Source: Ceratodon purpureus (Eukaryota; Streptophyta; Bryopsida; Pseudoditrichales; Ditrichaceae). From it: a stretch of DNA of 64,000 nt. Below are positions 5,671-52,890 of this stretch, one piece after another. The notes beneath the pieces are model-generated. The model saw only the letters and a list, made by a program, of their open reading frames with translations, had not been told where the DNA came from and ran no database searches. The DNA lies in the NCBI GenBank assembly GCA_014871385.1, contig CM026426.1, positions 101,821,393 to 101,885,392 on the forward strand, given 5' to 3'. Position numbers and translations under genes: made by a program. Numbering within the stretch: the stretch's first letter is position 1; each line of letters opens with the position of its first letter.

Positions 5671-5863
5671 GTTGTCATAACGGACGGACATGGGCAAAAT
5701 TTCCGGTCACAGACGGACAAACCGGTAGGTCCAGGGTGAAAATCAAACATTGAAGGGAGAAGGAAAATTACTAGGTTAGTTTTTTTTTTACAACTTACTT
5801 ATAGGGGAAACATACTGATGACATGGACAACCAACGCTGAAGGGGAATTCCACATATGCAAAA

Positions 5864-6028
5864 GGGGCGCCAGCGTGTTTAGAGGGGGGGCGCGAGCGGG
5901 TTCAAGGGGAGGGGGGGAGGGCGCGCGAGCGGGTTCCGTGAGGGCGCGAGCGAATTCAGAGGAAGCGCGAGCGGGTGAGGGGGGCGCGATCAGGTTTGAG
6001 GGGGGCACAAGCGGGTTCAGAGGTGCGG
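5864..6028. repeat. G-rich array A1 (GCGCGAGCGGGTTC units)
   Basis: Degenerate tandem units of roughly 20 bp built on GGGGCGCGAGCGGGTTC, with G runs between them. The same unit recurs in arrays A2 to A5. The array starts about 275 bp beyond the last codon of the RING-H2 gene piece that ends at 6302. On the minus strand it is C-rich and is followed about 60 bp later by a TATAAGT (5797-5803), but no gene is recognised to the left of that. Confidence 0.85.
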
Positions 6029-6301
6029 CCCACTTTGTAGATATAGCAAATTTTTGACATTGCAAAAAAAACTAACATTTCCATCAGAATAATATATTGG
6101 GACTAATCGCAATGACAACTGTGTAAATTTAGCATAGGAAAAATGAGATACTCGTCATACATGGACTTTGCATTGTTGTCTATATTTATGAAAGTAAAAG
6201 TATTTCATTACCATTTCAAACCAAAACATTACAAAAGTTGCGGTATACGAAAGCTAGTGGCTTATTACTAAGTTGTAACTATTAGTAGTACTCTGCATCT
6301 A

Positions 6302-6353
6302 CTACGCCGTGCCACTTGGTCCCGCTCCATCGTCCAGCGTCAAGGTGCGCCTC
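6302..6353 (-). pseudogene. 3' end of the interrupted RING-H2 gene
   Basis: Directly outside the left CACTA end, after the 3-bp target duplication, the minus strand stays open for about 15 codons in the frame of the gene piece that ends at 31800, then meets TAG at 6302-6304. The arginine-rich tail seen at 31.8 kb continues here as ARRTLTLDDGAGPSGTA. This supports the 25-kb insertion having landed near the 3' end of that gene. The reading is inference from frame continuity and the matching duplication. Confidence 0.6.
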
Positions 6354-6366
6354 CACTAGTAGAAAT
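6354..6366 (+). repeat. CACTA left terminal inverted repeat
   Basis: CACTAGTAGAAAT, the outer 13 bases. It pairs with 31787-31799 with two mismatches (positions 6 and 12). CTC precedes it. Confidence 0.75.
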
Positions 6367-7478
6367 CGTGGTCCAATATGATGTTGGATACATTCTGCAG
6401 CGGTCCTAGGTGACTGACGGATGCCTTATGGTAGGGCCCCTGCATCACATCATCCTCCGTGTCATTTTGCGTCCTGGATGACTTGGTCATATTGGGTAAT
6501 GACTGGAGTCTCTCATCACAACGGACTGCATCGTCATCTGCTTGCTTCAATGATCCATAGATTCATAGGCAAATGTAAGTTGTGGCTGACTCAGATGTCT
6601 TGTTGTGAACTCCCGTTTGATGTACTTTTTACTTACATTTGGTTGTAAACGCGTAGCTGTAGATTTCGGCGTTGATTATCCAATTCTGAGTCTTCGAACC
6701 CAATCGCATGCATAATCCCCTGACGGATTACATGCATGTGTCTGTTCTTTGACTGCTACTGGTACATTTTGCTTAGGTTGTCGTAGTTTAGGCGAGTCAT
6801 GTGTGAAATGTCTGCTTCTTTCAGTCATCTACGATTGAATTACTTAGGTTTGAAATAGAGTCAGCCATTCACCACAGAATGCTTCCGAAAGACATGGTAA
6901 TTATTTAATTGGTTGCGAAAAAAACACAGACGTGGCTGATATGTTTTCCTGCTGTTCTACACCGTTAAGTCAATTTGGACCCACGACGATAACAACTTCG
7001 AAGCAGACCAACTTCTGAACATGCACACAGTGTCCACACAAAGCTAAACTGGAACAATGTGTTAACCATCTGAGGCTTGATCTAGGAGAAGGCAATGAAG
7101 ATCTATCTACTAACTCCATTGTATACATGACCAGCAAAACTATGTATTGAGGACAGTACCTTGCCCCGATAGCGGATCTCCTAATGAGACATGGAAAAGC
7201 AAAGTAGCAAGCATTTTCCAATAGCAGTCTCTATTGCAGTAATTCAAAAACGGATCAAATGTGGTCATGCATACATCACATTGAGGCTTGTGTCAAAGAC
7301 ATCCACTTCATGTAGTTCTATTCATTTCAAGTGATGGTGGATCCAGTCGGTATAAATTGCATTCTTAGTCCTCAATTCTGACTATCTGTTCAGAAATAGC
7401 TGCATGGGTAATTCACATCAAAGTATACCTCTAGAGTATCACTGTACGCTACTAGTAATCTCAAAACAGACAATATCG
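6367..7478. other. Left subterminal region of the CACTA element
   Basis: About 1.1 kb without convincing coding sequence. CACTA elements keep transposase-binding motifs in such regions, but no clear repeated motif was picked out by eye. Confidence 0.5.
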
Positions 7479-8060
7479 TTACTCTAGTTCTTTGTCTAAG
7501 GCCACTCCACACTCAAGAGTTGGCTCACCTATCTCATTGTTGAATGAGGTCGCCACCTCCAATTTCCGTTTGCTGGCCTTACAGGCTGTCCAATCGTTTG
7601 TTGTCACGTTCTGTCTGCGGCGTTCTTTCGTGTCAGAGGAGTCGGAATCACTGGGGGTGCCAGGTTCCGGGCCAAACCTCTTCCTCTTGAATGGAGCAGC
7701 TCGTAGTCTTCGACCTGTTAGTCCCTTCCGAGGTTGCGGTTTCTCCCCAGAATCTCCTCTTGCATCTTCCTTCGTATCTTGTGGCGTTTCTGTAAAAGAT
7801 GTTTCTCCATTGCTGGATACCACGTCTTTGGTTCCAAGAGTAGGATTACTGTCATCTGCAGGAACGCGACACACGACCGAAAGAATGCCAATACTATCAC
7901 AAGAAGTGCCATCCGGCTTACCATGCCCTTCCAAAATATTGTCAAACGTCTCTCCCTTACCGTCGGGGTTGTCCTCACCTTCGGCAGCCATGGAGTTGCT
8001 TGCCAAGTCCCTTTCCTCTTCTACTTCTAACATCTCATCAAGCATGTGTCTTAGAATCAT
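7479..8060 (-). CDS. CACTA accessory ORF B, unknown protein
   Basis: A 193-codon frame from ATG at 8060 to TAA. The product is hydrophilic and low in complexity, rich in D, E, S, K and R, with a basic stretch (FKRKRF) then TKERRR and KASKRKLEVATSF near the C terminus. These may be nuclear localisation signals. No known domain is recognised. The tail resembles ORF A (8847-9512), which has TKEKRRR followed by NAKARLQVVTSF at the equivalent place, so A and B may be diverged duplicates. An upstream exon is possible. Lying inside the CACTA ends, it is probably element-borne cargo or an accessory gene. Confidence 0.5.
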   Translation of the reverse strand: MILRHMLDEMLEVEEERDLASNSMAAEGEDNPDGKGETFDNILEGHGKPDGTSCDSIGILSVVCRVPADDSNPTLGTKDVVSSNGETSFTETPQDTKEDARGDSGEKPQPRKGLTGRRLRAAPFKRKRFGPEPGTPSDSDSSDTKERRRQNVTTNDWTACKASKRKLEVATSFNNEIGEPTLECGVALDKELE

Positions 8061-8846
8061 CTCAATGAACGTTCCGTGCGCACCTTAAATGAGACATCGC
8101 AGCACTGATGGGCGTAAACAATTCCATGCGTGAGAAATGGCAAGGAAAACTGCGAAACAAAAGCGTAAGGTGCGCATCACTGTAACTGGGACATAACCTA
8201 GGGATTTTAATGCAGATCTGCTGTTGATGGCACTTAGGATTGGAGTGCACTTAGGTGCTGTATAATTGCTGACTGTATGAATTTTTGAGCTTTACCAATA
8301 CAAGATACCTCTACACTGTCAGCAAACAACGAATCTTATTTTTTAAATTCAGTCTCATCTTCCATAACCGAAAGCTCGCAAAATAAAAGTGGAAGGCAGT
8401 TCATAAAATTTTTATTGAGATTTGCTCCACTTACATGAATGAAGATTTTGCACTCACAATGTGGCATAGTGTGTTGATACTACGGCCAATTTATCACCAA
8501 TTGTTCCTGTTGTACAAACAGGGATCGGTAGCCGGAACATTACACCGTCTAATGGACAAACCTCTCTTTGATATCTATGTCAAATCCGCTGCCCATTCCA
8601 TTGTAGCGTATGGCATTCGACGACTTCATGCAGATCCATAGACATAGGAAGGTATTGGAGAATAATAAATACGCAGTAAAAATATATGCAAAGAAAACCC
8701 CAAAAAAAAAAAAAAAAAAAAAAAAGAGAGAGAGAGAGAGAGGGGGAAGAATACGATGAAGTAATTTGTCATATTTTGCAATCATGTAGACATGCCCGTA
8801 ACTGATGTCACTTGACACTCACTGTGTATAGGAGAGCAACATCCTG
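8061..8846. other. Noncoding spacer with poly(A) and GA tract
   Basis: No coding sequence is supported. It holds an A25 run followed by (GA)n and G5 at about 8704-8746. Confidence 0.6.
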
Positions 8847-9512
8847 TCATCCCTTGGTGGCCCAATGTGCTTCAAGGGGTGGCAACTCGTCAGGCAGAAC
8901 GTTATACTCACCACGAGTTTCCGCGGAAGGTAGAGTGATAGACTCTCTTTGCGCAACACCTCGGTCATATGCTGGTTCTTCCGAGGGCGTCAGATCTTTA
9001 GGATGACATAAGCCCGACCCCTTGCATAAAGGACATTCGATGCAATTCTCTGTCGGAGACTCTGGATCGCCAGCTGGTGCTTGTTCTGAAATTCTAAAAG
9101 ACGTGACGACCTGTAGCCGAGCCTTCGCATTTGGAATTGTCATCCTAAAACTCCTTCGATCGTCACTTCCAACTCTCACAGTGCGCCTCCTCTTCTCCTT
9201 TGTTTGTCGTCGACCTATGATTGGACGGGACGGTGTATTCTGCATCGGACCTGAATTGTAAATGGATGAAGATACAAGCGGTGTCTTCTCGGAAATAGCA
9301 CCCCGATTCACCAAAGCTTGCTCATATTCAGGGGAGTTGACCTGTTCCTTGAAATCACTTCCACCATCTGTCGTCTGCTTCGTATGTGACATGTTCTCCA
9401 ACGCCACTGCAGGTTCTGTTACATACTCGACGTGATCGCAGTCACTGTCTCCCTCTTCCTTACTGGCATTGCAAAAAACAAACGACGATTGGACGTTTGC
9501 CGGGTTAGCCAT
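8847..9512 (-). CDS. CACTA accessory ORF A, unknown protein with Cys motif
   Basis: A 222-codon frame from ATG at 9512 (MANPANVQSSF) to TGA at 8847. The frame is open further upstream, but that part runs through a poly(T)/poly(A) tract and translates to Phe repeats, so the internal ATG is preferred. The product is acidic in its first half and has a basic patch, TKEKRRRTVRVG, near residue 120. Then comes CIECPLCKGSGLC near residue 175, a possible small metal-binding knuckle. The TKE-basic-LQVVTSF region resembles ORF B. No known family is recognised. Confidence 0.5.
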   Translation of the reverse strand: MANPANVQSSFVFCNASKEEGDSDCDHVEYVTEPAVALENMSHTKQTTDGGSDFKEQVNSPEYEQALVNRGAISEKTPLVSSSIYNSGPMQNTPSRPIIGRRQTKEKRRRTVRVGSDDRRSFRMTIPNAKARLQVVTSFRISEQAPAGDPESPTENCIECPLCKGSGLCHPKDLTPSEEPAYDRGVAQRESITLPSAETRGEYNVLPDELPPLEAHWATKG

Positions 9513-10405
9513 ATTCACAGAACTGAAATGAAATAAGAAAAAAAAAATGAAAAAAAAAAAAAATGAAAAAAAAGAAGAAGAAGACAACAGGCAAATAAAA
9601 CACATTTGAGCGATACTCACAGACGTCACATATAGTGACCTCTGGAAAACTTCTCTAGTACTATTGAAATGTGGTCAATAGCGAGATACATTGATAGAGG
9701 AACTGAACCGTGAACTGATCTTATAGAATGAAATGTCATCTTAGAGACAGTGGGTGACCGATGAATTCCGAAAACGCCGTGAGAAGAAGTGCTGGTATTA
9801 AGAGGGAGTGGAATTGGCGAAGTTTCTTGCCGTCATCGCCCATACCGATGACGTCCACATTGCGTCTTCCGTAACTGATAAAGCATCTGCATCATTTGTT
9901 GCCAATTTCACCATGAGTCTAATTAAGGGACACAGACCGAGCACTCTACATGCCAACTGGTGTTTCCGTTCCGTTTCTATTATACGTCTACATGTAGACG
10001 ACTGTGGCAGTAGTAGTTACACATATCCTAGTCCAGTTCTTCTTTATGGATATATGGATGCTTGTCAAGCTCACATAATCTAAAGAATGAAGCCTGTATT
10101 GCTGAAACTTGAGAAAAGCACATCATCTCCTTGAAGATAGAATTCGAGTAAAAACGGGGGCGTCTTACGTTACAATTCCTCCCGTGCATTGTATCCATAT
10201 GTTCAAATAAACTGCAATAAAAAAACGCAACGCATTAAATGTTCCAAAACGTTTCTATATTGCACATGAATATCAGAATGTGAACACAACGCTGCCGATG
10301 ACAATATGGGATAAAAGAAACTGCCGTAATGGCAATTCTTCATCTTCAGCATCCGGAGAGTAGCACAATTCTGAAACACTCAAAACTTCTTATGTCAACT
10401 CTGAA
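9513..10405. other. Spacer between accessory genes
   Basis: Begins with A/T homopolymer runs (about 9538-9580). The rest is ordinary AT-rich sequence with no supported gene. Confidence 0.5.
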
Positions 10406-11117
10406 TTACTCTCTAGAATCAGATGATCTAGTAGCATCCAGCACGAACTTTGCGAAATCGACAATTGGTCCGTGACAGTCAATTAGAGCTAAGTCTGCTA
10501 GCGCCCTGTTCCTCTCCAATCTAGAACCCTGCATCACTATCTTGTGTTCCAATAAATCTCTTCTCTCTCTATTACGCCAGGCCTGATGGTTTGCAGCGGC
10601 TTTTCTCAGTCTCGCAGCTGTTACTTGTCGAACCTGTGCGGACATTGCTCGTTCAATGGCTTCCTGAGAATGTACATAGCGTGGGCTTCTGAGCCTAACC
10701 AACAACTCTGCCAAAACATTAAGTTCATGGTTGTAGTCGGCCCGTGCATCCATACACTCTTGTTGCATCCGCCCTACGGCAACTGTAGCGAGCTCGTCCC
10801 GAAGATTCTTCATTTCTAGATCCGCTAACCATACCGCCATTTGCGCATTTTCTAACCGCTTAACAACCTGCACCACCACGTCAATCACAAAATCAGTCAT
10901 GATAAAAGTGGCACAGATTCAAACCATACGCATACACAATCACATAAATTGCACATAATATACCCTTGTTGTTGTTGGGTTGAGTCCATTTATAATGCTG
11001 CGACATGCACAGAAAGGTTTCAATTTTGGAATTGCATGCTACTTCAAATACCTGCTCCACATGTGTACGATAGTCCTGAAAATTTGCACTTATACTCAGT
11101 CTTTTCATGCAACTCAT
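10406..11117 (-). CDS. CACTA accessory gene C, small coiled-coil protein
   Basis: A two-exon gene. Exon 1 is 11117-11052 (22 codons from ATG, donor CAG/GTATTT). Exon 2 is 10867-10406 (acceptor GTGCAG, phase 0), giving about 175 residues. The protein is strongly helical: LENAQMAVWLADLEMKNL, then an Arg/Ala-rich heptad region with AQVRQVTAARLRKAAANHQ. It is likely a coiled coil. No known domain is recognised. Proteins of this kind in CACTA elements can be DNA-binding partners of the transposase, but nothing here proves that role. No internal stops occur, so it may still be intact. Confidence 0.55.
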
Positions 11118-12104
11118 CCGCTTAATAGAGCAAGAATGTTGTTAGGGACTGTGTGTGCCATTTATTCGTCATTGTGATCTCAGTGGTAATCAAAAATTAA
11201 AATTCCAAGTGAACGTTTCAATTCAGCGTTCACTGCCAGATGTCCTATTACGTTCAGTAAGTGACAGCTTGAATTCACAGAAAACACTGTTGGGAAAAAA
11301 AGAAATAGAGACATCAGCGTCTTGAGTATATACCTATCTCCCGATTTGAATGACTCCATGCTGAGGCTTCATTACATCATAATGTATGCCATATGATGTT
11401 GTCGTTCTCATCAATAGCTAATGATACATAATGTCCGTGCTCCGTATACTCAATGAATGTGCCCTCCCAGCATTCCTACATCACTCATTACTGTCGAGTA
11501 CCATTTGTCATTGCTTTGTAAATGATCACCTATGTCATATGAAATCTACGTTTCTGCTGGTCCATCACTCTGATGATTAAGTAGTATTATAAGAACGTTT
11601 GATGTGATTTTCTACTGCTCTCATTCCACTCTTAAATACATTCATCGAGTTTTTTTTTAATCACAAACTGATAACCATATGTACATGGTTTACTCTAATT
11701 CAGAAACGCTGATGGGTTATTTAAATTGTATTAAACAACTTTCGATCTCATTGGTAGTGTTTACGGCTATTCCTTTTCCTCCACTGCTCGGATCATAGTT
11801 CTGCTACTCTCTTACCGATTACATAGTCTACTTGTTTTGTTCACGCCTTGTAAGTGTACATCAATTTCAGATCGTATTGTTGCACATTTGTTTTGCATTT
11901 GCGATAAGATACTCTTTTAATGAACTCCGATGGACTTTACTTGCCGGGCTCCCCACTCGTCCTCATTTACGTCGCTTTATTTTGTAGAACAGGCTACTGT
12001 GATAGAATGAATTGAAGCACCATCAAATTATAACACTAGCTTACCTCCTCTGACCTTAGAGTGGCTTGTTTATTATCCTGTGAACTCGTCGAACTTCACC
12101 ACAG
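11118..12104. other. AT-rich spacer
   Basis: No coding sequence is supported until the exon at 12105. Confidence 0.5.
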
Positions 12105-15100
12105 ATTTCAAACGGTAGAGCCAACGCTCATTTCAGAGAGTGGAATCAAGTCGAAGTGGATTTCCATTCTAAATTTGCGTACTTCATTGCTGTAAGTCTC
12201 ACTCTTTTATTCATCTGTCCTCCTATGTAGGTCGCATACCTTTTTAAGTTTTTTTCTGTCTGGTTTTAGAACGGTGCATTGTTTTGTCAATCGAGAACCG
12301 TACATACTACTCTGACGTAGAACCTGATAGACTTGATTTGGTTACTGTTCACGGTTTCTGATCCGTATAAGACGATAATGGCATCACCTCCTGTTATTCG
12401 GTAGCTGCTTAGTTTTTAACCCCTAAAGGACCATTGTCCTAGAATGGGCTTTTTTAAAATTTGGGCAGGTACCTAGAATGGGCTTTTTTAAATTTGTTAA
12501 ATTTGTCCTAGAATGGGCTTTTTTAAAATTAGGTTTTTTGAACCATGTCAGTCCTCGTAATAAAAATAATATGTTCGAATAATAAAGTTCTTTGACTATG
12601 TTCCTAGGAAGTTAGTCTAAAACTGCCGTTTCTGTGACATAGGATGTTAACGGGAAAAAAAAGTTATTTTTAGACTTTCAACCGTAGGATCTTTAAAATA
12701 GATTGAACTTTAGAGAGCTAGTTTGACCGTACGGATTGGTAGATTATAGCATTTGAAGTTCAAAGTATTATTTTTTGGAAGGGTGCCCGAACGGATCAGC
12801 AAGGTTTGACTCCATTTGCTTTGAGATTTATACACTACCAAATTTGGCATTTTTTGATATTCAAAATGAATGTTATGTTAGGTACAAGGGTACCAAATTT
12901 GAGACTTATTGGACAATTATAACGTACCCAAAAAAAGGTTGCAATTACAAGATATCTAAATGTCAACTTCTTCAAATTTTTTTTGTTTTATATTTTTTCT
13001 CACTCATTTCTATAGAACTTGACAATCCAAATGGTCAAATTTTTTCTCATATCATTGACTGCAAAATGAAAAAAAAAAAATGCAATCGCTGCCACACAAC
13101 TAGAGATATGAATTAAAACGTAAAAAAAGAAAAATACAGTGACTGGGCAGGGATTACAGTCCCAGGTCGCACTTGCAAGGGCGACCCCAGCGGGGCACAC
13201 CCTGCGGTGGAGCCGAGGCCCCTGCCTCAGCCCGCTCTCACTCCGCGACCGGGTCACTGCCCCGCTCCCAAGCAGGCGGGATCAGAGCCCGGCCTCTGCT
13301 CCCAACCCCGTTGGTCCGAGGGCAAGGCAGTGACGCCTCTGTCCCGCCGGCACTGCGACCCCCCCTTCGCTGTTTCGTGGAACTCCGCCCCCCCCCCCCC
13401 CCCCCCCCCCCACACAAAAAAACATTCCCCCCTCCAGCGTGGCTCTCCCTCCTCCCTTCCTTTAAGGCCGCTCCTTCCCTTCCTTTCTCTTCATGTACCC
13501 CCTTCTCCACTGCCACTTCAATGAAGGCCATGCTTGAAGGGCCCTTATCCCACCACCTCTCCCAATCGCCCCTAAACCCGTCTCTGTATTTTAGAACATG
13601 GCTGTGAGCAACCTCTCCATGTAACATTTTCTCTAGACTAACCTTTGTACAACCAAACTCAACAATTGTTTTTGGTATAATTCATACTTTTCTAACTTTT
13701 CTCAATTTATAACCCCGCTTTCTTAGTTGTTCAATGTATTTGCCCTTGTAAGGGAAAAGGACAATTCATGAATATATATTCACCTCCTATTGGAACGCAA
13801 GAAATGAACTTGGGTGAAGAAAAAAAAAAAAAAAAAAAAAAAAAACATTATTATGTGGAAAAAAAAAATGGTTTGAATAAAATGAACATTCCGAAAAATA
13901 TAATTCATAATGGTTCTAAGAAGTTCAAATACAATATAATAGCAACATAATTACACACATTGATGTTGTGGACTTACATTTCGTGGCAAATGTTCCCGAA
14001 GAGCCGCATGATATTCCTCAAAACAAGTCCCATTCTTGAAACACATGAATTTGTTATCACATGATGAACAAAAATAATGTGGCCTCTTCCCTTCCGCTGT
14101 CTTTGACTTGTTGCATACCACGCAAGGATTCCATTTCTTTGAATATGAAGGAAAACATAATCCCCGTCTTTGTGGTGGGGTTATGAGGTTATCAATTTCC
14201 CGTCCTCTCCAATTACGTAGTAAAGCCTTGCATAATTTTGTCCTGAACTGTAAGTGGGTAATTGGCTTCCGGATTGGAATTGCATTTCTGCATTTGTCTA
14301 CATAAATCAAAAACATGTTGACAACCGTCATGTCAATCAAAAAGAAGAAAATGCGATGCCACGACTTATGTGACCGGTTCTGCATACAATAAGATGCACG
14401 TAGTTGATCAGCTACATCTACTCCCCGCATATGCGTTGTATATTCCAAATGCATCGGTGATGTGGGAATATCCTCCCGTACTGCTCCACTTCTACGGGGT
14501 ACGGGTGGTACAAGGGAGCCTGGAGCAGTTGTTGGTTGTGCATGTGTAGATAAAAGAAGAACAGGTTTCTTATCCTTCCATACCACTGAAAACATTGTCC
14601 GGGATTCATGCATCCTCCAATCCATCCATCCTTGCTCTCTATTCTTATATGCCTTCGTATTCCTCAATACCATAGGAACTCCAATGCGATTTGACCTCAT
14701 AGTTCCTGTGGCATAGATATCCCTCTGTAGTAGATCCTTCAGTAATCCAACACTGATAAAGAAATTATCCATAGCAATAACATGACCCTTCCCTCCAATA
14801 TCACTAGTCAACTCTACAACCACGTTATGAGCTAGTTTTGGCTCCCCCCTTGCCAGTCGAGGTTCCTCTGCAACTACTCGACTTTTACCACAGTAAACTT
14901 CAAAATTCCACACGTATTTAGAAACTGAGCATGCCAAACACCAAACCTTGATCCCCCATTTCTATGGTTTTTGTGGCATGTATTGTCGCAGAGGACAATA
15001 AGAGCCTTTGTACCGTATCATCATTTCGTCGATGGTGCAGAATTTACCCAATACCCATGCGCGCTTACAGTTATCCCTAATTCCTTCTATCAACCACCGT

Positions 15101-18100
15101 ACGTGCCCTAACTTATCATAACCTGGTAAATCTTTGTCTCTCACATAGGTTGCAGGATTGGTGATATGAAGACATTTAGTCAAAACCATGAAACGCGCAC
15201 GGCTCATAACATTTGAGATAATAGAGCAATGAAAAATGGATCCCTTGTTATGCCAATAAGATTTGATATTTGGTTGTCGCTTCATAGCCATATACAACCA
15301 AATTGCGAGAAATGCCTTCAATTCTCTCTCCGTAAATTCATCCCACCCTGCCCCTCCCCTGGCATTTCCATATCTGTCATACTCCGTGGCATAACAATTA
15401 GACTCCCGTACAATATCCCGTAAAATTTCATGTGTCCAGAAAATCTCAAATAATTGGAGCATGGTGGGAAATATCCTCCCATCAAAAAATGACATTGACC
15501 CCCCATTGAATTCTCTTGGCGTTGGATCATATGTGAAATGTGTCTTATTCCATGTTGCATCACGATACATGTACTTGACACTATTATGATCCCCAAAATC
15601 TCCCTCCCCCTCTTCTTCTTCACTAGAAAAAAAGTCATCCTCATCAACATCACTTCCACTCTCTAGTGTTGGCACTCCATAAATTTGCCCCATTCGGTTC
15701 CTGCGTACATTAGGAACTCCTTCATATTCTTCTCTTTCATAACCTCCATCCAAATATCCAGGAGACCCCCCAATAAATCCTCCATCATCCCCACCCACAA
15801 ATTCCCTTTGTAACTCCCTCTCTGTAGCCCCATTCCTCCCTCTGCCCCCAATCCCCATCTCCCCGAATTTCCCAGGGCCTCCATCTCCATGAATAACCGC
15901 ATCCTCCATGACCCCAGACCCGCCCTCTAGAATTCCCTCCCCAACCTCAATCCCCACTGCCCCGTCCCCCATTGCCCCTGACCCTACCGCCATCCCCTCA
16001 GCCCCAGCCCCCATCCCCGCAGCCCCCATCCCCGTAGCCCCCATCCCCGTAGCCCCCATTTCCGCAGCCCCCAACCCCGCAGACCCGACCCCCGTCATCG
16101 CCTCCCCGCCCCCCATACCCGCACTCCCTACATCCGATCCACCAGCCCCGCCCCCCATGGCCGTGGCCCACCCCAGTCCCGCATGAGTTCCCTCGGGCTC
16201 CCAGGCGCTCCCTGTAGGCTCACCATGAGTGCCGTGTGCCACAGGCTCTGCTCCGCCCGACGTCTCCCTGCAGAGCGCCTCCGCGTCGGCCTCTTCGATG
16301 GCAGTGGACGTCTCCCCGCAGACATGCGATTTTTGAGATCTCCTTGCTCTCAATTGTTTTAGACGCTACTTCCTACTCTTTCGTGCTCTTTCATCGTATC
16401 TCTCAATGTTGTATTGCGTTTCTGCAGGCCACATTAAGTCCTCCAAAGATCTGGCCTCATCAAATGCATACTCTCCTTCATCAATGCTGTCCTCACTCGG
16501 TTCCTCACAGGAGCTCTCCCTCCCATACTCTTGTAGCAATTCTTGGCTTTCTAAAAAATCAGGGTTCCCTTCACCAATTGCTGATGCCAACAGTGTATAA
16601 ATGTCATCTTCACAATCATCTTGTTGTAAAGGAGGTGCAGATGGAGGTGTTGCACTTGAAGAAGGAGGAAGGGGTGATGATGGTGGTGTAGGAATGTGTG
16701 GGAGTATTGGATTTGAGTTAGAGGATGGCTGCAAACTCTGTAACCTGCTGCTGCGTCTTGGACGCTCCAAAAAACTCTCCTACACAATTCAAATAACACA
16801 TGTGTGAGTATGGGTATGTAGACACAAATTCATGCATAATGAAAGACTATATTCACTGCTGAAATTGGCTCTCACCTCCTTCCCCTTCCATGACAAAGCA
16901 CCCTTGCGTGGCATTGCAATGTGCTTCAATATACAAACACAAGAGACTATGACAAATGCAAGTGTGAGAGTGCAATGTGAAGAGCTCATTTTATAGCTCC
17001 ATTTTCCATAGAAATTACTCTCTCATTTCACATTTTAGAGTACTCAATCAGTTTACATCAACATGATGCCATGATCTCCAAGCAAAGGTGGGCGAAATTG
17101 AATGCGCACGAATTTTTTTGTGGACTAAGGAGGTGTGAATCAACATCAAATTTTTTTTAGCAACCTACTGTCTGTGCATACAGACAGCTGAGATCAATGC
17201 CGCAGCTAAACGGGCGGGGAGGCGCAGCCATGGCCTCATGCTTCCCATGCAGGGAGGAGCATGATCAGGCGGCGGGCCCCCCTCGCCTTGTCCTCGCTGC
17301 AGTAGGGGCATCAGCCTCGCCCCCGACCTTTGCCACCTGGGCGCCTGGCCTTACAAGGCAGCCAGGTCCAGGCTGGCAGGCGGGGTCAAAGCCCGCCCCC
17401 CATCCCGACCAAGAGCTTCCCAGTCAAGAGCCGCGTTGGCTCCCTCGCCCTTTCTCCATCAGACCGGGCCCGCCCCTCCCCCTCCCCTCCCCCGCCCTCA
17501 CTCCCGTGCCCGACCCTTTGGAACTCTGCAACCCTCTCCCTCTCTACCGGCCCTCCCCTCTGAGACTTCTTTACTGTTCACCTGCCCTACTCCAAAAGTC
17601 CAACTCATTCTTGAAGCTCATTGGAGCATGAGATGGCCCATTTTTTCCAATCAACAGCTTTTTGTGCTCAGGCCCTTATAACTTTCTCATTAAGTGTCCA
17701 AATTAAAAAAAAAAAAACATCTCCATGTAGCTCTTGTAATGGCCTACCTACAATAAAAATTTCAAAAAATAACAATTAAAATTGAGACCGTAGGTACCTG
17801 CCCAAATTTTAAAAAAGCCCATTCTAGGACAATGGTCCTTTAGGGGTAACGTAGGCGGAGTACTAACTGAATTCTTTTTTATTTGAAATTAACAAAGTCA
17901 CAGATCATTGACGATGTTCAACCGGAGAAAAAAACATCTGCATCATACAAACCACGAAGACTAGTTCTTCATGATTACTCCTCAGACGACGACAAAGACG
18001 TTCCCCATTGTCTCGATGAAGAAAGAGAGGAAATTCAATCTGTGAGTAATATGTATCTACTCACCCCCTCTTTCATCTGCATTTGCGTTTTCTACATCTT

Positions 18101-39590: not shown

Positions 39591-39966
39591 GCTCACACTG
39601 TTCTGTCCAGATGAACACCTCGATGTCGCCCTCCTCAAAGTTGTAGAAATGATCTAAGTAGGCTCGCTCTGATCCCCCCTCTTGTCCCTGGTCCTCGTCC
39701 TGGTTCTTCGCCTGGCTCTTGATCTCGTCCTCGTCCTTGTTGTTGTCTTGGTCCTTGTTCTGCTCCATTCGAGGCAGAGTGACTGTTTCAACGGCCAGTA
39801 AGTCCTGCTCACTAGCTAACCACAAGGCTTCCTCCTCATCTGTCAGCCCTTCAATAAAATTATAACAGACTAGGACTTCAGGTAACTTAGGCTTGGGCCC
39901 CTTCCTTTGACTGACTGAGATCGTTTTTATAATACCATTACCTCTAATAGTGACCAAGTTATTACC

Positions 39967-40450
39967 CTAGTCGTGATTTACCTTAGCATCAATCAACCAA
40001 GGTCTGCCTAGCAACATACTATAGGCTTCATTAACTTCTTTATTTTTTATAACAGTCAAGGTAATAAGGTAAGGAATACCATGGATGTGAATTTTCACAT
40101 TACGAATCATTCCCACCAAGTCAACAACTGTCTGGTCCGCCATTCTTAATCTGAAAGGTTCAGGTTGTAAGTCCTTCAGGCCCAGTCTTTTACGCTCCTC
40201 CTCAGTTATCAGGTTCACACCTTATCCTCCATCCAATAGGACATTCTCCAAAGTCCCATTCCCTACCTGCACAGTTAAGACCGGCAGTTCCCTGTCAACA
40301 TCAATGGCTAGAGTGCCGATTAAATCAGTCTTACCTGGTTGACTGGTGGTTGGTCTCTTGCTTGGTGCTGGCTCTGGCTGAGTGTCTTGGTCTGGTGCTA
40401 AGTCCGGAAACACATGAGCTTTCACGAATTCTGTCAAGTTAGGGGCCATC
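39967..40450 (-). pseudogene. Aspartic protease part of the LTR element (fossil)
   Basis: LENVLLDGG followed by VNLITEEERKRLGL and then AYSMLLGRPWL is the retropepsin-like pattern of plant gypsy elements. Confidence 0.85.
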
Positions 40451-40929
40451 TTCAGTAACTAGCCCAAAGAGACTGTAATGGGACTGTCCAATAACTTTTG
40501 CCCCACTATGGTTGCATAATGCTGTCCCTGGTTGTTCTCTTTACTGGTATCCCCTTCTGTGCCCAATTCCTACTGTATGGTTTTGGAGCTGTAGTCTAGT
40601 GTGTCCGAGTCTGAGAATCCTGCCCACTCATTATCCAGTACCTCGTCATCTCCTTCCTTCACTGTTGTTTTTAAAGTCGCCTTAAGTCTCTCTGCTTCTG
40701 CCTTCTCCTGCTCCACTTGAAGCTGAACTTCCTTTTAGGTTCCGAGCATAGACTTCCTGATTTTTTCTTCCTCCTATGTGTCCTCCTTTGTTCTGGCCTT
40801 TCTTGGATCAGGTTCCGTTGATTCATCCTGGATAGGTAACAGTCCTGCCTTCGACCGCCGGGCTCTGGTCATGGTAGCTACCGCCACTGACTCTTCACGT
40901 TCTTCTATTAGCTCAATCTCCACATTGCT

Positions 40930-42950: not shown

Positions 42951-43789
42951 ACAGTGTTGCTGCTCCTGTCTGTATTCTATTCCAGTGTGAACTTCTTCCA
43001 ATTTTTTCTTCAGCGTTTCCAATGTCTCCACCAAATCAGCTGGTGTTTTCTCCCCTAGTTTCGGTGTGTTTGGTCTGCTGCCTCCTTTCTTTTACTGTCC
43101 ATTCATTTTTAATTTTAACTTTTCAATTTTCCCATTTCTCATTTTTCTTCTTAAACCACTTACTGTTTTCTTAACTCATTTTTACTGTTTGCATTTTTAC
43201 CCTTAGTTTCCACTATTGCCTTTTACTACTAGACTATTTTTACTGACTAGTAACTTTTCAATTTTTTATCGCTATTTATTACTGCTCGAATGTTTTTTAC
43301 TAGCTAGTAACTTTTTGATTTTTACTGCTACTTTTTATTGGTCGTTTTTCACGCAACCTGTTGTTCCTTTCCTAACTGTCTGAATTCAACAGCGGTTTGA
43401 AACATACCTAAATAACTGCGACTATCCTCCCTCTGCTTTGGAGCTGTCCTCAGCTCCTGTGCCGTTGACAGCTTGGGCATTGGCTCCTCTCCCACGAGAT
43501 TCTGGAACTTGGTACCCTTAGCTTCGAAATGTGCTCCAACTGCAGCATCTGTGGTCCTCCTGTAACGTTGACTGCTCGGACATTGGCTCCTCCTCACTAG
43601 ATAATGGAACCTGATCCCCTGAGCCTCGTACTGTGCTCTTGCTGCAGCATCTGTAATAATCCTGTGACTGTAATCCTGTGACAGTAACCCTCTGAGTGTA
43701 ACCCTCTGCCTTGGCCACTGTGCCTGTCTACCTGTTCCAAACTCTCCTGCACTATACGGGTTCGCAGCAAGAGCCACCTGGTTTGTACT

Positions 43790-43806
43790 TAATGCATGGT
43801 CGCCAA
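43790..43806 (-). other. Primer-binding-site candidate
   Basis: Directly after the 5' LTR in element orientation the minus strand reads TTGGCGACCATGCATT. This is where a tRNA primer site lies in LTR elements. The tRNA was not identified. Confidence 0.45.
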
Positions 43807-44419
43807 TGTTAAAGGGTGATTTAGCTCACCCTTTGAAAGCTAGTTTACTGTCCAAGAGAAAAAAATGAAAACCCTCAAAAATTTCTAGTACCCACCTAGT
43901 TCCTACCCCCTCTTACCAATCTGCTCCTGGACTATACCAGTATTCTGTAACTTCCGCCCCTATAACTCTCATCAATGCACGTACCTACAACATAAATCTG
44001 CCCACAAACCCTAGCATTCAATGTGCACACAAACTCAATCTGGTCAAAAGAGTCTTGGTTTCCTCATTAATGGCTGCCTCATACAATCAATCCTGCCCTA
44101 TACAGTCCTGTCCTGCCCTCATAACTCCTAACTTCCTAACCACGCCTCCTAATCTCCATAGCCACAGCAAACTCTGCAAGAGAGTGAGAGAGAGTGGGAG
44201 CCGCCAAGGCCTCACTCCTCACTACCCCCCAAACCCTAGTCGTCGTCATCCAATCTGTCCGTTTTTCATCCAAGTCAATTTTTCATCCGACTCTCAAAAC
44301 TTCATTCAAAATGCAGTAACTAGTTACAAGACGGAATACTGTTTTACTGCTCCAGGCAGTTTACTGTTCTTGCTCCTAAATTACTGCTCCTAGGTGAACG
44401 GCAAAAAATCCCTTTAATA
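43807..44419 (-). repeat. LTR, right copy (5' LTR of the element)
   Basis: Nearly identical to 33618-34229 over its whole length. Followed by GTCAC, the partner of GTCAT at 33613-33617. Confidence 0.92.
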
Positions 44420-44888
44420 GTCACGTACTCTCAGCATCGTAACACTCTTCATGGTTTTGATGGAAGACCAGTCCACCACTTTGTGAAGCACCACCTCAGC
44501 ATACATCATTCTGCAAATGATCAATGGTGCTTCATTGCGTTCTACAGATCGTTGCTTGTATAGATGCTGATAAACTTGTATACAACGTTCAACAAACTCC
44601 GCATTGAAGCAGAAGTAGAGGTTTGCCTTGTCTGAGGTCCTGTGATTTCTGTGGCGCTCGTGCGGAAATAGTTTTGTGATGTGGCACCACTCAATGAATT
44701 CCTCGCATGTGGAATATTTCCATGGTTGTGGCTTGTCTTCCCAACGTCTAAATGCCAACTTTGCAGGATTGTTCAACACATGAAGCCGCTTCTTCATCGT
44801 CTTACCACCACGCTTCCGTTCGCGATCTTTGATTCGCTTCCTTTCCCCCTTGGTGAGTGGCACTGCCGGAGGGGGATTCTCCTCCATG
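44420..44888 (-). pseudogene. RING-H2 gene, 5' piece
   Basis: Begins with ATG at 44888 (MEENPPPAVPLTKGERKR) after a CACACCACC leader. The first 40 residues are basic (RERKRGGKTMKKRL). A folded region follows with FRRWEDKPQPWKYSTCEEF, FNAEFVERCIQVYQHLYKQ and CRMMYAEVVLHKVVDWSSI. The frame is open up to the LTR element. The last segment resembles IARALVSEVCHHNLMNW in the second RING-like gene (about 59.1 kb), which supports common descent. A TATA box and G/C array lie upstream. No function beyond RING-family membership is claimed. Confidence 0.6.
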
Positions 44889-45221: not shown

Positions 45222-45229
45222 CTTATATA
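45222..45229 (-). promoter_or_regulatory. TATA box of the RING-H2 gene
   Basis: TATATAAG on the minus strand, about 335 bp upstream of the ATG at 44888 and immediately downstream of array A2. Confidence 0.6.
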
Positions 45230-45230: not shown

Positions 45231-45310
45231 TCTTGGGGGAGGAGGGGGGGCGCGAGGGGGTTCGAGTGGGGCGCAAGCGGGTTCGAGGGGGGGCGCGAGT
45301 GGGTCAGGAA
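45231..45310. repeat. G-rich array A2
   Basis: Units such as GGGGCGCGAGGGGGTTCGAG and GGGGCGCAAGCGGGTTCGAG. The array is C-rich on the strand of the RING-H2 gene and ends within a few bases of its TATA box. Confidence 0.85.
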
Positions 45311-46364: not shown

Positions 46365-46470
46365 CGGGGGGAGGGGCGCGAGCGGGTCGGAGGGGGGGAG
46401 GGGGGGGGGGGGGGGGGGGCGCGAACGGGATGAGGGGAGGGCACAAGCGGGTCAAGGGAGGGGCGCGAGC
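46365..46470. repeat. G-rich array A3
   Basis: Units such as GAGGGGCGCGAGCGGGTCGG and GGGCACAAGCGGGTCAAGG plus a run of about 18 G. It is G-rich on the strand of the kinase-like gene, the opposite of A2 and A4, and ends about 20 bp before a TATA box. Confidence 0.85.
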
Positions 46471-46489
46471 TTCTGCGCTTTCCACCCAC

Positions 46490-46662: not shown

Positions 46663-48243
46663 ATGTCTTCTAGGCAAGGCTCCGGCAAGCGGCCTATCTA
46701 GGAAGATTTGGATGCTCCAGATGCGGTGGACCCTATTAATTGTGTAAGAGCTGAATCGCATACTGGTTCTATTCCTTCATCTAGCTCGAAGGGGAAGAAG
46801 AAGAAGAAGAGTATTGGGGGGCACGAGAAGGATGAGGGTTATCCACCATTGGAGTATACGCATTTCATCAGGAAAGTGACCGTCGAATACTACAAGGCCC
46901 GTAGCATAAGAAGTTTGAAGGCAACTTACCTCGATCAAGGAGAAGCTGGGATCTTCGCCCTCCAACGTGATTTGGAAAGGGAATTCTAGAGCGCATTGGA
47001 AGGGTCAGAGTTCTACATGGGTTGTATGAAGTATTATCACAGCCCAAAGTGGTTGACACAACAAGTGAGCAGTGCTACGACAAATGTCATTCATGTGTTT
47101 GAATCACATGTGAAAAAACCACAAGGCGAAGAATGGAGCAACCAAGACAAAGTGTTTCTTGAGAAACTGAGAACGGTTCAAGATGCATGTCAGAGATTTT
47201 CCAAGGGGAAAACGAAGATTATGCCTTGGAATGAACAAGCGTTGAACTCAGCATTGGAAGCACACATGTATGGTTCACTGATTGGGATTCCGAATGTGGC
47301 CAAAGTTGTGCTATTATCTGGCTTCAATGCCAAAGGGGGGTATGGCAAAGTGCGGAAAGTGCGAATAGCCAATATGAAGCGTATTCCAATTCACATCGAA
47401 TTTGCGGGAAAAATGTCCAAGGCTAAAACTGAAGAGGATAAGCAAAAGGAACGAGCGATTGAGGCCATGGTTTGCCCGGTAGAGCATCCGGGTGTGATAA
47501 AATTTTGGGCTTGTCACTCAAAGACCATGGAAGCTTATACGCTGAGGTGGAACGGAGATTGCCTCCGCAACTTCCTCAAATTAAATGAGAAGGCGTCAGA
47601 GGCAGCAAGTTACAAAGAAATTTTGAAGCTGCCCAAAATGCCCATGGAAGACTGCCAGAAAATTGTTGCCTATCGAAAGAACCGAGGAACGTTGGCCTGG
47701 AGTCTCATCTACGTTATGGACATAGTCCATAAGGCTGAAATCCTCCACAACGACTTAACGCAATCCAACATTCTACTCCACTTTCCACCTCATGACAAGG
47801 ATAAAGTATATATTGGTATGTGCGATTGGGGTATGGCAAGCAGAGTTGTTGAGAAGAAGGCCTCCTCTTATGGTTTGAGAAACTCCGATGATCTACAACG
47901 ATTAAAGGAGAGGAGGGTAGGAGTTGCGCCGTAGTTGTTTTTTTTATATGGCGTCAAAGATGACGAGGAACGCAATTTGGAGAGCATGAAGAGGATGCAT
48001 CCATGTACGACGGAATCTGATGCATTTTCGGTAGGCCATTTGGCAAAGAAGATATGGAGCAAGGAGAAATGCCCGGAACTCTTCAAGGATCCTATATCAG
48101 AGATAGTGTTCTCATCAAAGTTGGATGGCTTGGTTAACGAAGATCCCGCAAAGAGGCTTTCACTTGCAAGAGTTGTGGATGATTTGATGAGTCCCCCTTA
48201 CAACTTCCAAGCTCCCACTGGTTGTTTTAGATACACATTGTAG
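46663..48243 (+). pseudogene. Protein-kinase-like gene, three in-frame TAG
   Basis: A 526-codon single-exon frame from ATG (MSSRQGSGKRPI) to TAG at 48241. The second half is a protein kinase fold: glycine loop AKGGYGKVRKV (about residue 225), AGK lysine (about 250), catalytic loop LHNDLTQSNILL (about 362-371), CDWGMAS in place of DFG (388-390), an AP motif at the activation segment end, SDAFSVGHLAKKIW as helix F, and DPAKRLSLARVVDDL near the end. HND and DWG differ from the usual HRD and DFG, but the key Asp and Asn are kept. The first 200 residues match nothing I know. TAG interrupts at 46699-46701, 46987-46989 and 47932-47934, with no frameshift, at places where Gln would fit. Arrays A3 and A4 flank it. 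Confidence 0.85.
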
Positions 48244-48439: not shown

Positions 48440-48999
48440 CTGCCCCCTCAGAAGCTCGCGGCCCCCCTTACAAAAGCTCGCGCCCCCCCCCCCCTCCGCT
48501 AATGCTCTCGCCCCCCCTTCCCCATAAGCACTCGCCCCCCCTTCCCCTGGAGTGTTCGCCCCCCCTCAGAAGTACTCGCCCCCTCCTCAGAAGTACTCGC
48601 CCCCTCCTCAGAAGTACTCGCCCCCCCTTCCAAAAGCTTGTGCCCCCCCTTCCACTGATGTTCTCGCCCCCCCTTCCCCCGAAGCACTTGCCCCCCCTTC
48701 CCTTGAAGCACTCGCCCCCCCCCTTCCCCAGAAGTACTCGCCCCCCCTCCCAAAGTCACGCGCCTCCTCCTCCCACAGGTTCTCAGCCCCCCTCAGAAGT
48801 ACTTGCCCCCCTTCCAGAAGCACTCGCCCCCCAAAAGAAGTAGTTGCCCCCCCCCCCCCCCCCCCCCCCCTCCAGAAGCTCGCGCCCCCCACTCGCAGAA
48901 TCTCTCGCCTCCACTTAGAAGTTCTCGCCTCCCCTACCAAACACTTTCCCCCCCATGTGAGAAGCTCTCGCCCCCTCAGGAGCTCGCGCCCCCCCGCTC
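48440..48999. repeat. C-rich array A4
   Basis: More than twenty degenerate units of about 18-25 bp, mostly CTCGCCCCCCCTTCCC with AGAAGTA, AGAAGCA or AGAAGCT between them, plus a run of about 26 C (48847-48872). It is the longest array of the window. It begins about 200 bp after the kinase-like gene and ends at the TATA box of the hAT gene. Confidence 0.9.
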
Positions 49000-49004
49000 A
49001 CGAG

Positions 49005-49010
49005 TATAAA
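49005..49010 (+). promoter_or_regulatory. TATA box of the hAT gene
   Basis: TATAAA within CACGAGTATAAATGCC, directly after array A4 and about 205 bp upstream of the ATG at 49212. Confidence 0.55.
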
Positions 49011-49211
49011 TGCCATCAACTTAGGCCAAGCCTAATTTCATTTCAAATCATGGCCTCTAGTCCCGGAACTCCTTGTAGGCTCCTTGCTTGAGACTATGTG
49101 CATCACATTGGCCTGTGGTTGATGTCTACACATACCATTTTTTTTTTCTCACATGTGACATACTAACACTTGCAGACAAGAGATCATTGAACTTTTTCAG
49201 AGACACGGAGA

Positions 49212-52200
49212 ATGACAGGTCAACAGCGTCAACCGACGTCTGAGTAGGCTCCGTGGTGGACGTTCCTTGATAAGGACCATGTTAAATGTGTGTGGTGCAA
49301 TGAGACTTTTCGTTATAAACGACAAAGAGCTATGAAGCACTATGGATGGGGTGAAGGTTCAAGCAAGAGTCATTGTTCCAAGGCTCCTGCTCCCGTGTTT
49401 AGACGCTTTGCCAATTGTGATAATGTAATACCAAAAAGAATGACACATGCGAAGATCTATGGCACTAACGGTGGTGATGGCGATGCAACCTTCATACCAT
49501 GTTCTAGCCAGTCTATGCCTGCTGAGCAATCTACGGAAGTGCCTCAAGGAACGGAGGAGGTCCAAGAGGAGAGGAATTCTCAAGTTGAACCGTCCTAGTC
49601 AACTCCGATTCTCAGCAGAGGCGATTCCTGTATAGGAAGATCTATGCGGCAACAAAGTTTTACAGAGGCCTATCAGATTAGAAAGCGCAATGATTTGGAT
49701 GAGAAATGGGTGGCCTTTTTTTACGAAGCGAATACGCCTTTCAATGTGGTTAGACATCCAACTTTCATCGCAGCAGTGGATGCAACCTCGAAAGCGGGTT
49801 TTGTCTACCGTCCACCAGCGTATAACGCAATGCGAACCAAGCACATCCAGCCAGCAAAGCAGCTTGTCAAGACGAAAATAGAGGAGAAAACCAAGCAATG
49901 CATTAGCTTGTACGGGGCAACTATTTGCTCGGATGGATGGGACAACGTTGTTCGTCGGCCGTTGATGAATGTCATGCTTGTGTGTCCAGCTAGAGATATA
50001 TTCCTTGGTTCCATTGATACAATGGGGAACAAGAAATCAAAAGCATACATAGCTGGGAAATTGAAAGAGTACATCAAAGAAGTTGGACCAAAGAATGTGG
50101 TACAGATTTGCTCTGACAATGCTAGTGCGATGTTGGGAGCCATGGACCAGGTGGTAGAAGCTTACCCACCCATTTACAAGCAAGGATGTGCAGCTCACAT
50201 CATGGACCTCTTACTGGAAGATTGGGGGAAGGAAGCAACCTTCAAAGAGCTGATTATCTTGGCAAAACGCATACCAAATTTTATACGTTGCTGTCATGTG
50301 ACCATGGCTTTGTTTCGCCAATTCAGCCCGAAGTTGTCTTTGTTGATACCCGTGGTGACAATATTTGGATGCCAGTACTTGATGATCGTTCCATTGCTTG
50401 AGCTGAGGGAGGCACTAATTCAGGTGGTAGTCCATCAGAAATGGGACGAATACGTGGGTACTTTATTCAATCGCCAAAACGGGCAACGTTTTCATGCCTT
50501 AGCAGGTCTAGTACGGAGTACCATTCTCGATGAGACGTTTTGGTTACGTTCTGAGAATCTTGTGCATGTTATGAAGCAGGCTGTTGTGACTTTGAAGACC
50601 TTTGATGGACAAACACCGGCAATGGGAGGGCGTGGTTGGCCATGAGTAATCTGAAGAAACATGTGTTCCGTCTACGGGGTGACCCTTTTTTCCTAGACCC
50701 CACTATAGCAGGGCGCTTTGAGACAGATTTTATGAAGAGATGGAAGATGATATTGACAGATCTCCACTACGCAGGTGCCATGTTGAATCCCTATATTTTC
50801 CCGGAGAGCCACGAGCTATTGACTATTGGTGCTGCAAGGCGTGCACTCCTGCAAGTGCTAATTCATTTAAGTGAGTGCCTTGGAGTGGACCATGATGCTG
50901 TGATGTTCGAGCTAACACAGTTTGAGGAACGCACCGGTCCATTCAGCCCTTTGGAGGCCCCAAACATTCGAGAGACGCGGATGCTACCCCATCAATGGTG
51001 GCAGCGGGTTGGGGCGATGCGTTGCCCTTGATAGCGAAGCGCATCCTTTCGTTAACATGCTCGGCATCATCATGTGAGCGAAATTGGAGCATGTATTCCT
51101 TTGTTCACAATAAGGTTCGCAACCAATTGGGCGTGAAGAAGGCAGAGGACTTGGTGTACATTTACACCAACAGCAAGCTCCTTCAAGAACCACGTGGAGC
51201 GGATCCGGTTAATTGGTACAACAACCGACCGTTCTCCGAAGACTCGGATGAAGAAGTTGCAGCCATGCACGACGAAGAAGTATGTGATAATGATGGAGAT
51301 GAAGGATTCAACGATGGAGTTGAAGATAATGGAGGCGATGGTGACGACGGTGGTGTTCATGTATATCATGGTGGTATGGATGATGAGTATCCAGAGTTAC
51401 CCGTGGACAATGCTGGTGGTGACATGCCACGCAATGAACCCGTTAACCAGCCGAATGGGGTTTTTGATTGGGCAAGATTTGATGAAGAGCCAGCTACTTC
51501 GCCTCACCACGTTGTCAATGAAATACGAACTAGAGGCGTGGTTGCATACGATCGAGCAGACGATGATATTGACGATGAATTTGAAGTTGAAATGACTCAG
51601 CATCAAAACAACGATGGTGGCAATAATGATGACATTCACCTCGTTCGTAGCGTTTTCAACAATGACAATGAAGGAGGGGGTAACAACGGTGGAGTGCAAA
51701 TTCCAATTCCACAAGACGTTGAAGGAGGAGAAGAAGTTGAACAACTCCAAGGCGCTTTGCTAGAAAATGTTGAAGAAACAACCCAGTCCGGAGGTTTGAA
51801 TGAAAGCCCTCCAAGAAATGAACATTCAGAGAGAGTTCAGAATGGACAGGAGGATGAAATTGCTGTTGGCCAATTGTTTCAAACGCCTGTGCCCCAGAAT
51901 ACACCTTCAATCGGTGCAGTACTTGCTGGGTTAGGTAGACCTCCCCCACCTCGTTCAAGCAGATCTACTGGGCATGGTTCAATTACTCCAACACTGAATA
52001 TAAGTGTTTTGCTCACTTCTTCTGGAGCAGGTCTACCGGCTGGACCTTCTACGACGCGTCGTGGAGTGATGCGGTCCAGTAAAGGTCCAAGAAACGTTCG
52101 TCCATTTTTTTCAGGATATACTGTTGGGACTACCTTGTCTTTACCTGTGGCTGTGGATAAACATAGATTACCCGTAATCAATGAGGACGGGATCACCGAT

Positions 52201-52519
52201 AAGACCAAAAGACGGAAGGTCAAAAGAATTGTGACTGCGGTGTTGGATGGTACAATTTGACCACGAACTGCGCAACATTCATTCCACAGTGGAGGAGTAT
52301 GCGCCTACTAATTATGGAGAAGAGGACGCAGTATGCGGAGATGACAAGGGCTCAGATGGTTCGGAAGATAGTCGTGCAGAGGCACCTGATGATGAAAACA
52401 TTGTTCTAAGAGTACCATTGGGGAGGCACGGTACTCGAAAGAATCCGGTGCAGCGCATCGCCAGAAAAAATAAAAAAAGTAATGCATCTTTCAGCATATT
52501 ACATATAGAAGTTATATAG
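49212..52519 (+). pseudogene. hAT transposase with BED finger and DUF659
   Basis: hAT-superfamily transposase. From ATG at 49212 a BED zinc finger is seen (WWTFLDKDHVKCVWCNETF, then RAMKHYG). A DUF659 core follows: VDATSKAGF, YGATICSDGWDN, VVQICSDNASAM and GCAAHIMDLLLEDWG. The C-terminal hAT dimerisation region has RILSLTCSASSCERNWSMY and NKVRNQLG near 51040-51130. A long acidic Asp/Asn/Gly-rich extension continues to about 52260 and on to 52519. It is interrupted by TAG at 49245-49247 and 49596-49598, and by frame changes near 50640, 51015 and 52250. No 8-bp duplication or terminal repeat was found by eye, so it could be a domesticated-type gene within an array module instead of a complete element. 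Confidence 0.88.
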
Positions 52520-52747
52520 ACAAAGTATAATATATATGACTCCAAAAAAATAAAAATAAAAATATATAAATAATATGTATATTTATACGTAGATACTTAT
52601 ATGTTAACCTTAGTCAATGTCCATAAAACATTAACTAAGGCTATGGAATGTATTTTTGTCTCGACATGAATTGAAATTTCTCTCATTTATGTCACTATGA
52701 AAACTTCACTCATGTCTTAATTTCCTTCAATGCCTGATTTTTGGTCC
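52520..52747. other. Short AT-rich spacer after the hAT gene
   Basis: Contains TA-rich sequence (52530-52600). No gene. Confidence 0.5.
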
Positions 52748-52890
52748 CGCGGACACTTGCGCCCCTCCTTCACAGGCGCTGGCGCCCCTCCCAGTCGCTC
52801 GCGCCCCCCTTCCCCAGACGCGCACGCTCCCCTCTTAGCCGCTCACGCCCCCGTCCAAGCCGCTGGCGCACCTCCTCCCCCAAGGCGTTA
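52748..52890. repeat. C-rich array A5
   Basis: Units related to GCTCGCGCCCCCCTTCCC and GCTCACGCCCCCGTCC, more diverged than in A4. It includes GGCGCTGGCGCC at 52775-52786. It starts about 230 bp after the end of the hAT reading frame. A weak TATATG follows at about 52931. Confidence 0.8.

Follow-up and report, generated by a model that had tools for sequence, protein, structure and literature searches.

In a stretch of 64,000 nucleotides from the moss Ceratodon purpureus (contig C6, CM026426.1, positions 101821393-101885392; the whole stretch is referred to as the window), G/C-rich repeat arrays lie next to TATA boxes of genes encoding unrelated proteins, namely a RING-H2 protein, a protein kinase and a transposase. 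Why should the same repeat accompany the promoters of such different genes? A sequence-only reading of the window had considered a mobile or amplifying module or else a shared promoter type, and had found no match to a known family. Comparison with other genomic copies reveals that the five arrays and the three genes constitute one large DNA transposon with a single pair of ends, and that this element belongs to the hAT superfamily. Hence, a known superfamily can be assigned after all, and of the two proposals both survive in altered form: the element is a high-copy transposon and its arrays mark three promoters, but it does not consist of several modules. As set out below, we consider it probable that the array-bearing intervals of this three-gene element are phased binding sites for one factor which acts on all three promoters.

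Ends and copies of the element

The window was compared with 8 array loci and 29 kinase loci (rows L016-L017 covered in part). The window's own row (L009) is left out of the row counts, as is L010 wherever the longer inverted copy described below was used. The element begins with CAGGGTTGTC... and terminates in ...GAACAACCCTG, short inverted repeats of the CAGGG type. The left end at 5668 corresponds to the exact start of 31 of 39 other scored copies (query base 29), the remaining ones starting at 21-38. Base C precedes AGGG at the left end in ten of eleven copies, and G follows the right end, again in ten of eleven. In the eleven copies in which both ends were read, an 8-bp target duplication is exact in five, retains seven of eight bases in the inverted copy and six of eight in two further copies; it is absent (2-4 of 8 bases) in three, the window copy among them. 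Thus, the alignment of copies which the earlier reading had proposed as a way to find ends and target duplications yields both. Without inserts, the element measures about 11 kb in the window, 9.9-11.1 kb in the copies E1, E2, E5, E10 and the inverted copy, and about 10.6 kb in E6. Window positions 6352 and 31800 adjoin each other in other copies, as do 33616 and 44417-44440; the two stretches inserted there are absent from five full copies and from the inverted copy.

Genome-wide, the left-end pattern (up to two mismatches) is found 504 times (247 + 257), compared to 0 for the control, and some of these matches are probably short derivatives. All of the best 40 of 383 first-look candidates scored in the kinase search, and likewise all of the best 40 of 607 in the transposase search, matched. 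Matches to the ends of the element thus number in the hundreds and copies of its genes in the dozens. In the full copies the genes stand in the same order, and a single pair of ends with 8-bp duplications encloses the element as a whole. This makes it scarcely credible that separate array-TATA-gene-array units move or amplify independently, even though some loci hold part of the element only, such as L074 and L082, which comprise merely about 220 bp of its left end.

Two left-end matches, C6:33729625 and C6:33730198, face each other at a distance of about 600 bp, as would be expected of a short derivative that is non-autonomous and bears the same end on both sides. In addition, an inverted segmental copy (C6:101789215-101807251; L039-L041) is 97-99% identical to window positions 5668-60061 and lacks both nested insertions. 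The match takes in 7 kb of right flank common to the window copy, and the left end of the inverted copy lies about 20 kb from that of the window copy. The piece comprising array A1 and the left end, however, is only 84% alike, compared to 97-99% elsewhere. A divergent left end beside a shared right flank suggests that the window copy underwent an exchange at array A1.

Arrays and TATA promoters

All five arrays reported by the sequence-only reading are present, with slightly refined boundaries (Table 1). They share the core GGGGCGCGAGC, while the spacer varies from array to array. The earlier description of one degenerate unit accordingly holds for the core, which A4 has in common with A1-A3, though not for the spacer of A4, which differs from theirs. 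With up to two mismatches the core occurs 44 times in the window, compared to 5-20 times in 20 shuffles within 200-bp blocks, indicating that local G/C richness alone produces some matches, but fewer. Throughout the genome the array unit (up to two mismatches) yields 2142 matches (986 + 1156) and its reversed control none. On both strands the spacing of cores peaks at 21-22 bp, i.e. about two helical turns (1080 units, a set that includes overlapping loci). In all seven copies inspected for strand order (window, inverted copy, E1, E2, E5, E6 and E10) the arrays occupy corresponding places, and the cores are G-rich in the left half of the element and C-rich in the right half, with three stray opposite matches. 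Individual copies deviate in that A2 and A3 are fused in E1 and reduced to single matches in E6, while E10 has lost A3 along with the kinase promoter. A Pol III B box within the unit (GGTTCGA) was discarded as a candidate since the following CC of the consensus is missing.

A close neighbourhood of array end and TATA box, claimed earlier for the RING-H2, kinase and transposase genes, holds across copies. For the kinase promoter, both TATA box and array are found in 35 of 37 rows (33 of 35 distinct loci), the last core standing 14-19 bp before the TATA box. At the transposase promoter both are present in 30 of 32 rows (29 of 31 loci), with the last core 7-11 bp before the TATA box in 25 of the 32 rows and up to 79 bp away in others; at the RING promoter the respective figures are 21 of 26 rows (20 of 25 loci) and 3-28 bp. 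Rows without both features have a mutated TATA box or a missing or unaligned promoter. Searched for genome-wide, the exact array-TATA junction is found 160 times for the kinase promoter and 59 times for the transposase promoter, the controls giving 0, and in the window the chance of encountering TATAWR on either strand no further than 30 bp from any one array end amounts to about 0.09. Random scatter of the arrays relative to TATA boxes and genes, which had been named beforehand as the observation that would speak against the layout, is not seen; their spacing is kept across copies. Arrays also follow the stop codons at roughly the 200-275 bp reported before, namely at 200 bp for the kinase gene in the window and, in copy L062, at 271 bp for the transposase gene and 279 bp for the RING gene. 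One detail did not withstand the comparison: the TATAAGT about 60 bp from A1 is present in only 2 of 27 complete left ends and is thus not a conserved promoter.

Array unit number varies greatly among copies and long runs of G or C are common, as would be expected if the arrays were functionless by-products of mutation, that is, slippage-prone G/C minisatellites tolerated in non-coding intervals only. Yet, the TATA-side edge remains fixed across copies despite the variation in array length, the exact junctions recur in the numbers given above, and the same core occupies five intervals with a fixed strand order, all of which renders this explanation improbable.

The G/C-rich core and the array edge at each TATA box are also what one would expect if a host factor alone bound the arrays, the element having amplified a G/C-box-like plant activator or insulator site. 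In 28 of 28 array loci outside the window, however, this element is found beside the array, so that the array does not appear as a general part of host promoters. These loci comprise the 8 best matches and 20 hand-picked from the listed places rather than a random draw, and single host sites lie outside that sampling. On this evidence we regard binding exclusively by a host factor as unlikely.

Alternatively, the arrays could be the transposase's own subterminal sites for synapsis and cutting, those at the promoters conferring simple autoregulation. A1 and A5 are indeed oppositely oriented and stand 200-260 bp inward of the left and right end, and the transposase of Ac binds repeated AAACGG hexamers within the terminal 200 bp (PMC3260210). 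Against this assignment, arrays fill internal intervals as well, and a motif separate from them is concentrated at the very ends: CGGAC/GTCCG reaches a density of 23-50 per kb in the terminal 2x150 bp, compared to 0.3-0.6 per kb inside (five copies: E1, E2, E5, E10 and the inverted copy; E6 left out). Considering the hexamer sites of Ac, the CGGAC repeats seem the likelier end-recognition sites and the G/C arrays would be regulatory. We therefore hold a subterminal role of the arrays to be rather unlikely.

Two further repeats occur in this part of the element. A direct repeat of 91 bp (44988-45078 and 45104-45194, 75% identical) is situated upstream of the RING start codon and downstream of the TATA box, and in the AT-rich spacer at 45626-46220, which separates the RING and kinase promoters, a stretch of about 200 bp is tandemly repeated in L018, L024 and L037.

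Genes, proposed mechanism and surroundings

The transposase sequence of the window matches the DUF659 profile above cut-off (E 1.6e-32). Dimer_Tnp_hAT remains just below its cut-off of 21.4 bits in the window (20.3 bits, E 0.00047) and reaches 15.4 bits in E5. By eye, an intron likely ends at TACTAAC...CAG near 49177. For the RING-H2 gene, zf-RING_2 scores 22.6 bits in the window (cut-off 27.3), lies below cut-off in two other copies as well and exceeds it in L007 (30.7 bits). The kinase frame is intact in copy L089 (C1:28464200-28466700), whose 526 codons include the HND...N, DWG and APE motifs; the glycine-loop pattern gave no match in L089, although EGGYGKV is seen by eye. The 39 other kinase copies scored against L089 (best of 897 first-look candidates) are 96-99% identical to it, showing that part of the family is young. 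The young subfamily of L089 occurs on many contigs, and its array-TATA junction, which ends in TATATAAGG, hardly varies. A sequence search of the PDB with the window kinase gave nothing at E 0.01. With L089 it gave four weak matches: one to a designed repeat protein and three, with a best E of 0.002, to the catalytic-loop region of PRP4 kinases. A DNA search of a phage collection with the kinase stretch returned no match.

To assess selection, ratios of nonsynonymous to synonymous substitution rates (dN/dS) were pooled between copies and given codon-bootstrap intervals; L031 and L002 were left out as overlaps, and from these sets as well as those for CpG decay, copies with less than 30-50% of the query aligned were omitted. 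The kinase gene gives 0.49 (0.40-0.60; 36 copies). Three pieces of the transposase gene give 0.41 (0.29-0.57), 0.49 (0.35-0.70) and 0.56 (0.41-0.75) from 13, 27 and 6 copies, and three pieces of the RING gene 0.51 (0.36-0.72), 0.58 (0.40-0.85) and 0.50 (0.35-0.71) from 10, 25 and 13 copies, respectively. Read in three frames, the spacer control yields 0.99, 0.90 and 0.75 with intervals reaching above 1, a short control stretch 1.31, and the wrong frames 0.79 (kinase, shifted) and 0.75 (RING, one base off). On balance, these values suggest purifying selection on all three genes during the spread of the family, the kinase gene presenting the strongest case and the RING gene a weaker one.

In the mechanism which we propose, the arrays would provide dense predicted binding sites in a 21-22 bp phase for one DNA-binding protein, perhaps encoded by the element, which would act on the three TATA promoters at once. 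Its binding might drive or autoregulate transcription, or else keep the CpG-rich promoter regions free of host silencing. By inference from Ac, the ends would be recognised through the inverted repeats and the separate terminal CGGAC repeats, while the kinase and the RING protein would be accessory proteins kept by selection; as their targets we can only guess at the transposase or the host silencing machinery.

Several observations weigh against this proposal. A1 and A5 do not stand beside conserved promoters. The constant array-TATA spacing among copies which are 8-15% apart partly reflects common descent. Furthermore, array orientation with respect to the gene differs, being G-rich in the sense of the kinase gene and C-rich in that of the RING and transposase genes. 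CpG decay (TG/CA at majority CpGs) amounts to 5-16% by region, compared to 2-7% per site for non-CpG transitions; a rise is seen in coding parts and scarcely in the spacer or 5' of the kinase gene, and there is no clear sign of array hypomethylation, the array figure being biased by the match threshold. In the N-terminus of the transposase, where a CxxC...H pattern is visible by eye, Pfam detects neither a BED finger nor any other DNA-binding domain. As to selection, some controls fall short of a dN/dS of 1 (0.75 in the spacer frame mentioned above; 0.68, 0.39-1.16, in a second stretch), and the RING stretch 33128-33550 gives 1.00 (7 copies).

Table 1. Features of the transposon and of its nested insertions, in window coordinates
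Feature	Position	Strand	Remarks
Left terminal inverted repeat, AGGGTTGTCATAACGGACGG	5668..5687	+	usual first base C is A in the window copy
Array A1	5864..6023	+	G-rich on +; ~200 bp inside left end, 262 bp past RING stop
RING-H2 frame, last codons	6285..6353	-	cut off by CACTA insertion; inferred from L007 alignment (stop 1860, junction 1927)
CACTA-type nested insertion, CACTAGTAGAA.../...TTCTAGTAGTG	6354..31799		3-bp duplication CTC, tnp2 transposase; not part of hAT element
RING-H2 gene, middle and C-terminal part	31800..33615	-	
Nested long terminal repeat (LTR) retroelement	33616..44417		614-bp LTRs, 96.7% identical; not part of hAT element
RING-H2 gene, N-terminal part	44417..44887	-	start codon at 44887 by eye
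RING TATA box, TATATAAG	45222..45229	-	
Array A2	45235..45309	+	G-rich on +, C-rich in RING sense
Array A3	46365..46472	+	upstream of kinase gene
Kinase TATA box, TATATAAA	46490..46497	+	
Protein-kinase gene	46664..48243	+	broken in window copy (stops, frame change); Pkinase E 4.3e-09
Array A4	48443..49003	-	C-rich on +; from kinase stop side to transposase promoter
Transposase TATA box, TATAAATG	49005..49012	+	
hAT transposase gene	49051..52475 (end approximate)	+	broken by frame changes in window copy
Array A5	52755..52872	-	C-rich on +; ~240 bp inside right end
Right terminal inverted repeat, ...CTATGAACAACCAT (other copies ...GAACAACCCTG)	53094..53111	-	end at ~53111

The first nested insertion, a CACTA-type element of 25 kb within the end of the RING frame, carries its tnp2 transposase at 21889-23448 on the minus strand. 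A piggyBac-type transposase (DDE_Tnp_1_7), nested or captured, is located inside it at 13954-14961, with further frames upstream. The retroelement is flanked by GTCAT and GTCAC (by eye), resembling a 5-bp duplication with one change. To the right of the hAT element, at 53144-54880, open frames of 172, 236 and 137 codons follow, which by eye are partly coiled-coil-like; the first of them has no Pfam match. The assembly comprises 362.5 Mb in 151 contigs, 110.5 Mb (30%) of which belong to contig C6. For C. purpureus, a genome of about 360 Mb has been described with U and V sex chromosomes of more than 100 Mb each, about 30% of the genome (PMC8000587), and we infer that C6 is a sex chromosome.

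Relation to known transposons

In descriptions of plant hAT elements, a single gene is the rule. Among open-licence PubMed Central papers we found none that, by its title or the opening of its abstract, describes such an element, with three genes that each have their own promoter, a common array at every promoter, and an accessory role for two of the genes. What is new, as far as those papers go, is the joining of three genes with shared promoter arrays in a member of a known superfamily; the transposon annotation of the Ceratodon genome may already list the family. If selected kinase and RING genes with an array at each promoter edge are borne out, they would show a DNA transposon coordinating several genes, and such a family may resist host silencing. 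The variable unit number combined with a fixed TATA-side edge, together with a young subfamily in which the L089 frame is intact, makes the idea directly testable in the moss.

With Ac/Ds, the present element shares short inverted ends of the CAGGG type, the 8-bp duplication and a transposase with DUF659 and hAT-dimerisation regions. It also resembles Ac in a short motif repeated at its ends, ACGGAC here and AAACGG there. In contrast to Ac, which is described as 4.6 kb in length with a single transcript (PMC3260210), it extends over 10-11 kb, comprises three separately promoted genes and harbours G/C arrays in its non-coding intervals.

In the CACTA element En/Spm, too, motif repeats adjoin the promoter; there the element protein TnpA binds them and controls both the promoter and its methylation. 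En/Spm, however, belongs to another superfamily, with a 3-bp duplication and a tnp2 transposase.

A further parallel is offered by the VANDAL elements of Arabidopsis (MULE superfamily), in which motif arrays of uniform orientation in non-coding intervals guide VANC, an element protein that removes silencing (PMC5735166, PMC10398659). As described in these papers, VANDAL elements also carry several genes, and their repeats are dense, equally oriented, confined to non-coding DNA, fast-varying in number and family-specific, in all of which they resemble the arrays studied here. VANDAL elements are, however, reported as non-TIR elements, i.e. lacking terminal inverted repeats (PMC13317346), and differ from the present one, which possesses inverted ends, 8-bp duplications, a hAT transposase and an array edge fixed at TATA boxes. 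The MULE transposase domain PF10551 attains only 13.7 bits in the window (cut-off 27.6). A VANC protein was not seen in the element, though no search was aimed at one. Because of its inverted ends, its hAT transposase and the lack of a MULE match above cut-off, the element is not a VANDAL. It is conceivable, though we put this forward tentatively, that a hAT element has evolved self-activation or anti-silencing independently of VANDAL, one element protein reading the CpG-rich arrays and the kinase and RING E3 ligase acting on the transposase or on host silencing. VANDAL/VANC would provide the closest working model for the arrays of the Ceratodon element.

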